Part shown: one piece after another, positions 44,283-48,101 of the stretch
Layout: every line of letters begins with the position of its first letter
How positions within the stretch are numbered: position 1 is the first letter of the stretch
From: Synergistaceae bacterium
GTDB taxonomy: Bacteria > Synergistota > Synergistia > Synergistales > Aminobacteriaceae
Length of the DNA stretch: 54,651 bases
Direction: 5' to 3'
Assembly (NCBI GenBank): GCA_031280275.1
Contig: JAITGX010000060.1
Span: 1-54,651 of the forward strand
Position numbers and translations under genes: made by a program
The notes under the pieces: generated by a model
Databases searched by the model: none
What the model was told of the DNA's origin: nothing
What the model saw: the letters and a program-made list of their open reading frames with translations, nothing else

Positions 44283-45998
44283 ATGGCAAGACGTTTTGGG
44301 GTTTTGTTTGTCTGCGTGTTTCTTTGGGGAGCAGTACCGTCCTGGGGCGCGGCTCCCGTTGGAGCCTCGTTTGACGTGTCCGTCTTCGAGGGGCCAAAGA
44401 TGGAGGAGCTGTACTACGTCATCATGAGGGACATGGACGCGCAGCTTCTGGCCATGTCCACGGGGGGGCTGGACGTGGTGTGGGACCTCTACCGCCCGGC
44501 GGACGTGGAGCGCCTGGCGCGGTCGGGGAAGGTGGAACTTTCCCTGGCGTCCAGCTTTCACGGGTTCTTCGTCACCTTCAACGTCCGCAAGTTCCCCTGG
44601 GATCAGACGGTACTCCGTCAGGCGGCGTCGCAGGTGGTGGAGCGCGTCAGGTGGACGCGGGACCTGTTCTCCGGCTACTGTGAGCCTCTGGCGAGCTTCC
44701 TGCCCCAAGTTTCCCCTTACTATGAGCCCAACGTCACGGCCTTCCCGCCGGGGGCTGAGGCCGCTCGCAAAAGGCTGGCCGGCGCCGGGTGGACATGGAA
44801 CCGGTCGGGCTGGCTCGTGACGCCGGATGGGCGCGAGGTTCCTTTGACGAAGATCTTCTGTCCGCCCTCCACTGTGGCCGCCACGACGACGGAAATGGCC
44901 CAGCTGATGGCCGAAGCTCTGATCTCCATCGGCGTACCCGCCGAGGCCGAGCCCATGGACTTCCAAACCATGCTGGCCCGGGTGGACGCGCGGGACTTCG
45001 ACGCCTGCACCAACGCCTGGTCCATGACCCGCGATCCCGACAACCTCTACGCCTTCTACCACTCCTCCATGGACGTGGAGGGCGGGTACAACCTCAGCGG
45101 TATCGCCGACCCCGCGCTGGACGCCGTGCTGTGCGAACTGCGGTACGCCCCCGGCGAAGCTGCGGCGCGGGAGGCCGCCTCCCGCGCGCAAAAAATACTC
45201 TCGGAGCTGATGCCGGTCATCCCCATCTACAGCCGTTACTCCATTTCAGCAGTACGCGAGGACTGGGACGGGGTCTTTGCCACCGATCGCACCACCGCCG
45301 ACAACTTGCTGACCCTCATCTCCATGAACCCCAAGGAAGGCGGCCAACGTCCCATCTACTGGAACATCCCGGAGGAAATTCGCACCATGAACCCCTTGGT
45401 GTCCTCCACAGCCTACGACTGGACGGTGTTAAGCACGATTTACGACAGCCTGATCTCCGTCGATCCCCACACCTTTGAGGACATCCCTTGGCTGGCCGAA
45501 AGCTGGAGGATAGGCACGGAGGAGGGTAGGACGGTTCTCACGTTCACCCTGCGGCGGGGTCTGAAATGGCAGGATGGACGACCCCTGACGGCGGAGGATG
45601 CGGCCTTTACCCTCCGATTTATCAAGGACAACAACGTCCCGCGCTTCTATGACAGCGTAAAGGACATCGAGGCCATTGAGACCGACGCGGAAAAGCGAAC
45701 CCTGCGCGTCGTCATGGCGAACACCAGCTACTGGCACCTGCACAACATCGGGGGAATGATCCTTTTGCCCAAGCACATTTTGGAGAACGTTCTGGACTGG
45801 CGGGCATGGCAGCCCACGAACCGTCCCCATCAAGCACTGGACGGCGAGGCGCTGAGCGAGCTGATCGGCTCCGGACCCTTTACGTTCCGGGAGTCCCGGA
45901 CGGGAGAGTACGTGCGCATGACCAGAAACGCTCACTATTTCCTGGCCAGCGGGAGCGGCGTGAACGCCAGAACCGCAGATACTGAGATGGCGCGATGA
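44283..45998 (+). CDS. Oligopeptide-binding protein with swapped halves (ABC transporter)
   Basis: 571 residues with a signal peptide (VLFVCVFLWGAVPSWGA). The sequence is SBP_bac_5-like but in unusual order. Residues about 40-350 resemble the C-terminal half of DppA/OppA (LAMSTGGLDVVWDLYRPADV, FVTFNVRKFPWDQTVLRQA, TRDPDNLYAFYHSS). Residues about 355-560 resemble the N-terminal half (NIPEEIRTMNPLVSSTAYDW, LAESWRIGTEEGRTVL, LRRGLKWQDGRPLTAEDA, GSGPFTFRESRTGEY, RNAHYF). It ends where the usual first half ends. A circular permutation, or deletion within a tandem pair, is inferred. ATG follows AGAGGGGG. It overlaps the permease gene by four bases (ATGA). Confidence 0.85.
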   Translation: MARRFGVLFVCVFLWGAVPSWGAAPVGASFDVSVFEGPKMEELYYVIMRDMDAQLLAMSTGGLDVVWDLYRPADVERLARSGKVELSLASSFHGFFVTFNVRKFPWDQTVLRQAASQVVERVRWTRDLFSGYCEPLASFLPQVSPYYEPNVTAFPPGAEAARKRLAGAGWTWNRSGWLVTPDGREVPLTKIFCPPSTVAATTTEMAQLMAEALISIGVPAEAEPMDFQTMLARVDARDFDACTNAWSMTRDPDNLYAFYHSSMDVEGGYNLSGIADPALDAVLCELRYAPGEAAAREAASRAQKILSELMPVIPIYSRYSISAVREDWDGVFATDRTTADNLLTLISMNPKEGGQRPIYWNIPEEIRTMNPLVSSTAYDWTVLSTIYDSLISVDPHTFEDIPWLAESWRIGTEEGRTVLTFTLRRGLKWQDGRPLTAEDAAFTLRFIKDNNVPRFYDSVKDIEAIETDAEKRTLRVVMANTSYWHLHNIGGMILLPKHILENVLDWRAWQPTNRPHQALDGEALSELIGSGPFTFRESRTGEYVRMTRNAHYFLASGSGVNARTADTEMAR

Positions 45999-46957
45999 CC
46001 TCCTTCTTCAGGCGGCTTTGCGGCTCCGCGGCGGTGCTGGCCGTGGTGCTGGCGCTCAATTTCTTTTTGTTCCGCGTCATGCCTGGCGACCCTCTGACCG
46101 CCATTATGGACCCGCGCTTTTCTCCAGAGGCCAAACAGCAGCTTGCCGCCCAATGGGGCCTGAACAGACCCATGAGCGAGCAGTTCGCCGTCTACATCAA
46201 GGAAATGCTCTCGTTTCGGTTCGGTCTGTCGATGATGACGGGGCAGCCCGTGTGGGACGAGCTGAAAAACCGCGTGCCCAACACCGTGGCGCTCCTGCTC
46301 CCGGCGCTGATTTTGTCGGCGGCTTTGGGGGTGTGGCTGGGCGTGAAGGCCGCCCTCGCCCGCGGGTCGAAGGCGGAGCGCCTGGTGCTGGTGAGCGGCG
46401 CGATCTCTTTCTCATTCCCGTCGTTTTTCGTACAGCTTTTGCTGCTCCTGTGCTTTGCCTACGCATGGCCGGTCTTCCCGCTGAGGGGAACAACCTCGAT
46501 CCCTCCGCCGGAGGGACTCATAACGGCCTTTCTCGACTACCTGTGGCACCTGACCCTGCCCCTTCTCTCTCTGGTGCTCCTGAGCTTCGGGGGGTGGGCG
46601 CTCTACGTTCGTAACATGATGGTGAAGACACTGGGCGAGGACTACGTCCTGATGGCCCGCGCGCGGGGGCTCTCGCGCCGCCGGGTGGTGTGGAATCATG
46701 CCTTCCGCTCCATCCTGCCTCCGGTGCTGACGATTTTCTTGCTGTCCCTGCCCGGAGTCGTTAGCGGCGCGGTTATCACGGAGACCGTTTTCTCCCTGAA
46801 CGGGGCAGGACGCTTTCTGTTGGAAGCCACCAACTCCCACGATTATCCCTCCGCAGGGGCGGCGTTTTTCCTGCTGGCTCTCCTGACGGTGGCGTGCAAC
46901 CTCCTAGCCGACCTGATCTACGTCCTGGTGGATCCGCGCGTGCGGCGCGTGCGATGA
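45995..46957 (+). CDS. Oligopeptide ABC transporter permease (DppB/OppB-like)
   Basis: 320 residues with six predicted helices. The start FFLFRVMPGDPLTAIM and the loop GLNRPMSEQFAVYIKEMLSF are typical of the first dipeptide permease; MARARGLSRRRVVWNHAFRS is the EAA-type loop contacting the ATPase. The start overlaps the binding-protein stop. The next permease gene begins at once (ATGA overlap at 46954) but is truncated, so the transporter is incomplete here. Confidence 0.94.
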   Translation: MTSFFRRLCGSAAVLAVVLALNFFLFRVMPGDPLTAIMDPRFSPEAKQQLAAQWGLNRPMSEQFAVYIKEMLSFRFGLSMMTGQPVWDELKNRVPNTVALLLPALILSAALGVWLGVKAALARGSKAERLVLVSGAISFSFPSFFVQLLLLLCFAYAWPVFPLRGTTSIPPPEGLITAFLDYLWHLTLPLLSLVLLSFGGWALYVRNMMVKTLGEDYVLMARARGLSRRRVVWNHAFRSILPPVLTIFLLSLPGVVSGAVITETVFSLNGAGRFLLEATNSHDYPSAGAAFFLLALLTVACNLLADLIYVLVDPRVRRVR

Positions 46958-47047
46958 AACGGCAAAATCGCGGCTGCGCGCGCTGCATACAGGCTCTCTT
47001 CGGCAAAAGTGATTTTTCGAGCCCTCTCGCCGTTTTTTCAGTTTGCA
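46954..47047 (+). pseudogene. Truncated start of a second permease gene (DppC-like)
   Basis: ATG overlaps the upstream stop (ATGA) as expected for a dppB-dppC pair, and about 30 residues follow (RCIQALFGKSDFSSPLAVFS) before unrelated sequence begins. The remaining permease and the ATPase genes are missing. The identification rests on position more than sequence. Confidence 0.45.
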
Positions 47048-47051
47048 GCAG

Positions 47052-47394
47052 TCATAACCAGCTAGGCAACTGCGAATATTTTTGCCTCCCTGCTGTCCAG
47101 CCTAGACTTTCCCGCTGGATTTTATAGAGCCTGGCGAACAGGCCGTTTCGGGTGAGCAGTTCCTCCCCGGCACCCTCCTCTGCCAGCCTGCCGTTATCCA
47201 GAATAACGATTTTGTCAGCGCCGAGCACCGTGCGGAGTCTATGGGCTATGACGATGACCGTCCGCTCCTTGACGAGAGCCGATATCGCTTTCTGCAGCTG
47301 CGTCTCGTTTTCCGGGTCGAGGCTTGCCGTCGCCTCGTCCAAAAGCACAATAGGCGCGTTTTTCAAAAGGGCGCGCGCGATGGATATACGTTAA
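47052..47394 (-). pseudogene. ABC exporter ATPase, C-terminal fragment
   Basis: Minus strand from the interrupted end at 47394: ISIARALLKNAPIVLLDEAT, then ASLDPENETQLQKAISAL, VIVIAHRLRTVLGADKIVIL, and a tail ending GWTAGRQKYSQLPSWL. Walker B (IVLLDEA), D-loop (SLD) and switch His (AHR) are present; Walker A and most of the LSGGQ motif are lost upstream. The gene is cut exactly where an IS1-type end begins, so the insertion or a later deletion removed the 5' part. MsbA-like half-transporters have this order. Confidence 0.85.
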
Positions 47395-47880
47395 TGTTCT
47401 AACTTTATTGTCATAATTTGCTGAGAAAGAAATAAAAACTAAAGCGAGGACAAATTATGGTTTTAGTAGCTTTAAACATGTCCCTTTTGTGGAAGTGAAA
47501 ACGTGGATAAATAATGAAGATTCGAATGGAAAACAGCGATATTTATGCCGAAACACTGAATATTCCCATTAAAAATTTTATACCGAATACACTTATAATG
47601 CTTATAAGCCTGAAGTGAAACAAGATATTATAAAAATGTCTGCCGATGGCACAGGGGTACGGGCAATATCGCGCATATTGGGTATAAGCAATAGATCACG
47701 ATACAGGTGAAGTTGTCGCATATTGGTTTGGCACACGGGAGCACGAAAGTCTTGATAAACTCATAGAATTGCTTGCTCAACTTGAAATTGGCAAAGTGTA
47801 TACTGACGGTAACTATGCGTACTATAAACGATTTTCTGTGGACAAGCTTGTTGTTACCAAAACAAATACGCAAAAAGATA
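47391..47880 (+). mobile_element. IS1-family insertion sequence remnant
   Basis: Left end GTTAATGTTCTAACTTTATT (47392 on) resembles the IS1-family terminus. Downstream are pieces of both IS1 genes. InsA-like: a broken zinc-finger start (CPFCGSENV from TGTCCCTTTTGTGG), NGKQRYLCR and KMSADGTGVRAISRILGIS. InsB-like: DTGEVVAYWFGTREHESLDK and GKVYTDGNYAYYKRF ending NTQK. The two parts are in different frames and joined by a deletion, and the 3' end is cut by the miniature element at 47881. Confidence 0.8.
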
Positions 47881-47973
47881 GGGCGTGTTTTAAAACTCCT
47901 TCACTATAAATGCATTAAAAAAGTGCCTAAAAACGGCTGTTTTTGTTGGAGTAGTCAGTTTTCAAACACGCCC
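47881..47973 (+). mobile_element. 93-bp miniature inverted-repeat element
   Basis: GGGCGTGTTTTAAAACT (47881-47897) and AGTTTTCAAACACGCCC (47957-47973) are inverted repeats with one mismatch. The interior is AT-rich with TATAAATGCATT and CCTAAAAACGGCTG, and has no gene. It is inserted in, or abuts, the IS1 remnant. A degraded relative is at 16521, and the ends resemble the IS at 436-934. Confidence 0.8.
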
Positions 47974-48101
47974 AAAACATTTAACTTTTAACTTTGAGAA
48001 CCTGGTGTGCAAGATTGGTCAAAAAAGGTATTCGTTAAATTCAGAACACAACCCCGATTGTGGGTTGATCCAACATGCGTTTTTGGGCTTGATAGGGCCT
48101 C

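Follow-up and report, generated by a model that had tools for sequence, protein, structure and literature searches.

The window, i.e., the whole stretch of 54,651 nucleotides that was analysed, comes from a Synergistaceae genome available as a 141-contig draft. An open reading frame (ORF) at positions 44283-45998 encodes a protein of 571 amino acids; a check of the sequence found its start and stop where the preliminary description of this DNA had placed them. The protein is related to the substrate-binding proteins (SBP) of ABC importers. The following features were annotated in the ORF and downstream of it.

44283..44351, forward strand: signal peptide, residues 1-23 (MARRFGVLFVCVFLWGAVPSWGA), read from the translation, with a putative cleavage site
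44391..45329, forward strand: second half of the canonical protein, here in first place, residues 37-349, located by the match of PF00496 positions 145-363
45330..45350, forward strand: linker PKEGGQR, residues 350-356, between the natural C-terminus and the natural N-terminus, located by alignments, with presumed exact ends
45351..45941, forward strand: first half of the canonical protein, here in last place, residues 357-553, located by the match of PF00496 positions 3-141
45942..45998, forward strand: C-terminal tail of variable sequence (residues 554-571), followed by the stop codon, from the alignment and AlphaFold2
45995..46957, forward strand: permease B of the DppB/OppB type, 320 amino acids (PF00528, 6e-39; PF19300, 3.9e-11)
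46954..47130, forward strand: likely remnant of the permease C start, whose ATG overlaps the permease B stop and which runs into unrelated sequence, from the ATGA overlap and the gene order in relatives
47052..47366, reverse strand: fragment of an ABC-type ATPase that is not of this system (SMC_N match below the cut-off, ABC signature and Walker B motifs)
47690..47905, forward strand: broken remnant of an IS1-family transposase (PF03400 DDE_Tnp_IS1, 5.8e-9; decayed frame)

The preliminary description had proposed that the two halves of the protein stand in swapped order, and the Pfam search bears this out. SBP_bac_5 (PF00496) matches the whole protein with an E-value of 1.3e-52, far past chance expectation. 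Residues 37-261 match profile positions 145-363, and nucleotides 45483-45941 match positions 3-141. Together the two stretches span nearly the whole family length of 368 positions. Since the match to positions 145-363 lies N-terminal of the match to positions 3-141, the second half of SBP_bac_5 precedes the first within one ORF. The linear order of the family is thus absent, while the circular order is kept without loss. No other Pfam family matched the protein. The motifs quoted earlier for both halves were found at the positions given for them. By reading, a hydrophobic signal lies directly ahead of the first block in the window protein and in the inspected orthologues, where it likewise abuts the GPK...LY segment; no lipobox was seen by reading in the signal peptide of the permuted SBP.

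We compared a profile of 49 permuted orthologues (A2) with canonical SBPs. Against each canonical protein it gives two matches in swapped order. Against doubled canonical sequences it gives one continuous match in five of the nine first tried and in E. coli DppA. For the doubled sequence of locus L027 the continuous match scores 138 bits over profile positions 15-532, versus 99 and 41 bits for the separate pieces. In doubled DppA the match runs uninterrupted over A2 positions 15-534. The block placed first comprises the end of lobe I, lobe II, and the return to lobe I, and aligns with DppA from residue 236 to about 520 and beyond (A2 positions 15-310 correspond to DppA 236-520). The block placed last ends in RNAHYF, a natural point just ahead of the GPK segment, with A2 position 534 at DppA residue 235. 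Positions 534 and 15 therefore fall on neighbouring DppA residues, 235 and 236, and no residue is lost at the cut, which lies after RNxxYF as had been described. The natural ends are joined through about seven residues. According to our reading of the DppA fold, the cut probably sits in a loop of lobe I, in which case both hinge crossings should remain. A sequence search of the PDB agrees with this arrangement: all relatives, including DppA, NikA, and AppA, match with the query halves exchanged (the best are 8efz, 8upi, 5isu, and 4qfk). A match to doubled sequences, a two-piece match in swapped order, and occurrence in independent genomes mark a natural circular permutant, and all three were observed.

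A homologue is encoded in 108 of the 188 Synergistota genomes searched, with one copy per genome except for genes split across contig ends. At the 22 loci that were inspected, identity ranges from 41 to 80%. The homologues are full-length and collinear, except for a few fragments at contig edges, and have the same breakpoint after the new signal peptide. In most of the 30 relatives searched, a single alignment covers the protein from about residue 25 to 555 of its 571 residues. The inspected orthologues start directly after the signal peptide with GPKxxDLYxVIIRDPDAQ and stop a few to about 30 residues past GTGPFxFREYRxGEYVxxTRNxxFW; these breakpoints are identical in every one of them, across ten families. 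The C-terminal tail (residues 554-571) is unconserved among orthologues and predicted to be disordered or poorly modelled. A dN/dS of about 0.09-0.18 against near relatives indicates purifying selection. The orthologues that were to be sought as a check on the swapped order thus carry it, and they are not longer tandem proteins. That more than half of the species sampled from the phylum carry the same rearranged gene argues for a working, long-conserved variant and not for a broken gene.

A wider scan with three conserved peptides covered the genomes of 84,980 species. Among 64 loci found, 62 are in Synergistota/Synergistetes records, and the other two are weak matches of the canonical type. 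On plasmids the best ten matches to this permutant were in two pieces with about 25-28% identity, and two of them that were read out (H5 and H2) have the canonical order. A Paracoccus match from the genome scan (L121) spans query residues 38-562, but its order is canonical.

The input for AlphaFold2 was the mature window protein together with 48 orthologues. The single model has a mean pLDDT of 92 and a pTM of 0.88, and only the first 4 and the last 15 residues are poorly modelled (pLDDT below 50 at model residues 534-548). The pTM supports the view that the two halves would close into one SBP fold, the outcome that the preliminary description had wished to see checked. Foldseek, which keeps chain order, aligned family-5 structures with it over only about 305 columns, with E-values down to 2e-20. 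The best of these, 5u4o, has an E-value of 2e-20 and a TM-score of 0.47 by query length; the best TM-score overall is 0.48. Neither the PDB sequence search nor the Foldseek fold search found a solved structure with the permuted order.

The SBP gene appears to be coupled to its permease, as had been suggested. The start of permease B overlaps the SBP stop as ATGA at 45995, which is consistent with translational coupling, and permease B is the next gene in nearly all complete loci of relatives. Where the flanking sequence of a relative is long enough, the permuted SBP gene is mostly followed by permease B, permease C, ATPase D, and ATPase F, in this order. Thus most of these relatives have the SBP, two permeases, and two ATPases of a Dpp/Opp/Nik-type importer, while the window retains permease B alone. 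Permease C of these operons is longer by about 130 residues, which lie after its first membrane helix and ahead of the conserved GTDxxGRD core. The position of this region in one operon is as follows.

L104:10729-11160, and 51 further loci: extra domain of permease C, predicted to be periplasmic

No Pfam family matches the extra region. AlphaFold2 predicts it to be all-beta (pLDDT 91). Its P, W, and D positions are invariant, and its GxxWGxxGTD end is nearly so. No relative of the domain was found on plasmids, and the fold search gave only weak beta-sandwich matches (nucleoplasmin-like, TM-score mostly about 0.5 or lower) of no usable function. A permease C with this domain is encoded in 104 genomes, and 102 of them encode the permuted SBP as well; six genomes have the SBP only, two the permease only, and 78 neither (Fisher p = 8e-43, a statistic that ignores shared ancestry).

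Several Synergistaceae loci are split, with permease C unlinked from the SBP-permease B pair or with linked ATPase genes missing (L165 on G001:C53, L166 on G015:C56, L080, L081, L083, and L092). Some genomes have the SBP with permease B, or with permeases B and C, without linked ATPases, and at L092/L167 the SBP stands alone. In a genome of the same genus (G001) the contig with the SBP also carries permease C, about 12 kb upstream, and D and F are not nearby. Such loci suggest stepwise loss or a possible sharing of ATPases. In the window the operon ends after permease B, and the likely permease C start runs into the ABC-type ATPase fragment and IS1 debris (46954-48100). The ATGA overlap, together with the B-C-D-F order in relatives, suggests that 46954..47130 is what remains of permease C. 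A search of the assembly from which the window comes, which is 87% complete, found no cognate permease C. A canonical, unpermuted Dpp-type system is present in the same genome, at the ends of two contigs (C117 and C54; L123 and L122).

In E. coli DppA, R383 and D436 clamp the two ends of the dipeptide (PMC12136057). Counterparts of both residues are absent from the aligned permuted family: the R383 region reads SPTAxxAPTTAE, and D436 falls in a gap beside WSMxRDPD. Judging from these aligned residues, the ligand is probably no dipeptide bound as in DppA; a peptide in another binding mode, a metallophore, or another solute is possible.

A second circular permutant was found in a Synergistales genome (L135, P0002; L135:2114-3793, reverse strand, on G019:C273). 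Below, the form found in the window is referred to as type 1 and this form as type 2. In L135 the signal peptide is followed by profile positions 159 through the joined ends to 534 and then by positions 33-162, so that the new ends of type 2 are in lobe II, near profile position 160. A tblastn search of plasmids with L135 found single-piece, full-length homologues in haloarchaea (Halalkalicoccus, 43% identity) and alphaproteobacteria (Nitratireductor, 41%), and 23 of the 30 best rows were single-piece. Seven homologues that were read out (L157-L163) have a cut identical to that of L135, and all seven adjoin genes for the same kinds of permease and ATPase. They are annotated merely as ABC transporter substrate-binding protein. 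Both types belong to family 5, have joined natural termini and a new signal peptide, and are encoded in the same kind of operon. They differ in the position of the new ends (lobe I in type 1, lobe II in type 2), in permease C, which is ordinary in type 2, and in hosts, which for type 2 are haloarchaea, alphaproteobacteria, and one Synergistales genome. When all sequences were rotated to the canonical order and placed in one tree, each type formed a separate clade (SH-aLRT 100 and 98). Two origins are preferred by this tree, although one joint clade is not rejected (p-AU 0.41).

Taken as a whole, the data are best explained if the protein is a family-5 (cluster C) SBP that is truly circularly permuted and functional, and we hold this explanation with high confidence. 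The natural C- and N-termini would have been joined by a linker of about seven residues, new termini opened in the surface loop past RNxxYF (DppA 235|236), and a new signal peptide placed on the new N-terminus. The chain would fold to the ordinary two-lobed Venus-flytrap shape, bind its solute in the periplasm, and hand it over to an ABC importer of the Dpp/Opp type, which would consist of two ATPases, permease B, and a permease C that bears the additional beta domain in the periplasm. The rearrangement would have arisen once, before the bacterial families of this order split. Tandem in-frame duplication followed by trimming is the most likely route and is plausible; in weakly supported trees of the separate halves, both do fall near one canonical subfamily.

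The preliminary description had also allowed for a decayed tandem pair, i.e., neighbouring SBP genes that lost opposite halves and left a pseudogene or fusion fragment open by chance. Deletion across a tandem pair would indeed leave the second half ahead of the first, and the operon in the window is disrupted downstream. Nevertheless, the identical breakpoints across ten families at 41-80% identity, purifying selection on the permuted SBP, and the one confident predicted fold all contradict decay; the collinear orthologues refute it, and we give this explanation almost no credence. They equally refute an artefact of assembly or binning. Such an artefact could be suspected in a 141-contig draft, many relatives of which are metagenome-assembled genomes, but the gene recurs in many independent assemblies, single-contig genomes included. 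Among its carriers are the complete genome of Synergistota strain L-13 (CP074691.1) and the cultured Acetomicrobium hydrogeniformans (locus L110), so that this explanation, too, has a negligible probability. A single permutant that is still exported, as had been proposed, is thus upheld by the collinear conserved orthologues, the gapless circular match to DppA, and the predicted fold, and its coupling to the permease by the overlap of stop and start.

Two further explanations accept the permutation itself. The protein could be permuted and folded and yet no longer serve as a transport SBP, being for instance a sensor or a scaffold that keeps contact with the permease. The missing counterparts of R383 and D436, the systems without linked ATPases, and the SBP that stands alone at one locus speak for it. 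Against it, the five-gene importer operon is complete in most relatives, co-occurrence with permease C is nearly perfect, and many family-5 SBPs without such anchor residues bind non-dipeptide ligands. We regard a loss of transport function as unlikely. Only slightly less unlikely is a chimera, in which the halves derive from two different paralogues and not from one parent gene. The top canonical match does differ between the halves (L136 for the first and L150 for the second). However, trees of the separate halves place both near the same group of proteins (type 2 permutants, L150, and L028), with moderate or weak support, and tandem duplicates would be nearly identical in any case.

The permutant thus belongs to a known kind of protein and has a new topology. 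With the family-5/cluster C SBPs DppA, OppA, AppA, NikA, NikZ, and CtaP it has in common all sequence blocks over the whole length, export, and a gene beside a DppB-type permease, and it differs from them in the swapped halves. In most relatives its operon has the gene order A-B-C-D-F and the subunit types of E. coli DppABCDF (PMC12136057), with a permuted A subunit and a C subunit carrying the additional all-beta domain of about 130 amino acids. The closest precedent, TpMglB-2 (Tp0684), comes from Treponema pallidum. This circularly permuted SBP, designated 'Type Ic / cluster Bc', is a functional binding protein of an ABC importer and binds glucose (PMC4990184). Both proteins are natural circular permutants of ABC-importer binding proteins. 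TpMglB-2 is a sugar-binding treponemal lipoprotein of cluster B, to which our protein does not belong, and has another fold topology and a different breakpoint; its permutation adds a fourth hinge crossing, whereas the cut of type 1 probably lies within lobe I. TpMglB-2 was the only natural permuted SBP, and none was of family 5, in the open literature searched.

On balance we lean, with some reserve, towards a broader interpretation. Family-5 SBPs would have been permuted at least twice, in different lobes, and both forms would have spread as functional receptors, type 1 across Synergistota and type 2 in haloarchaea and alphaproteobacteria. Type 1 would be tied to a permease with a unique beta domain, and the whole would be an undescribed topological class. 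The beta domain may have co-evolved to dock the receptor with its new ends. If so, cluster C has its own counterpart of 'type Ic', which the unspecific label "ABC transporter substrate-binding protein" hides. Naturally occurring circular permutants are a rare kind of evidence that new termini can be accommodated by a fold. The type 1 permutation is conserved in more than half of the sampled Synergistota species, in a nutritionally important receptor family, and a differently cut form occurs elsewhere. For the design of biosensors from binding proteins, such permutants offer insertion sites and termini that nature has already tried out, and they allow a direct test of the weight of chain order in export, folding, and docking. 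Through the permease C domain, co-evolution between docking and the receptor ends can be put to the test. Domain annotation that is blind to order conceals topological classes, which calls for caution.

Some canonical SBP matches lie in very long open frames of 857, 1000, and 1104 amino acids. Such frames of 800-1100 amino acids were seen at L137 and L139 and at places in G029, G007, G023, and G014; these are possibly fused or multidomain proteins.
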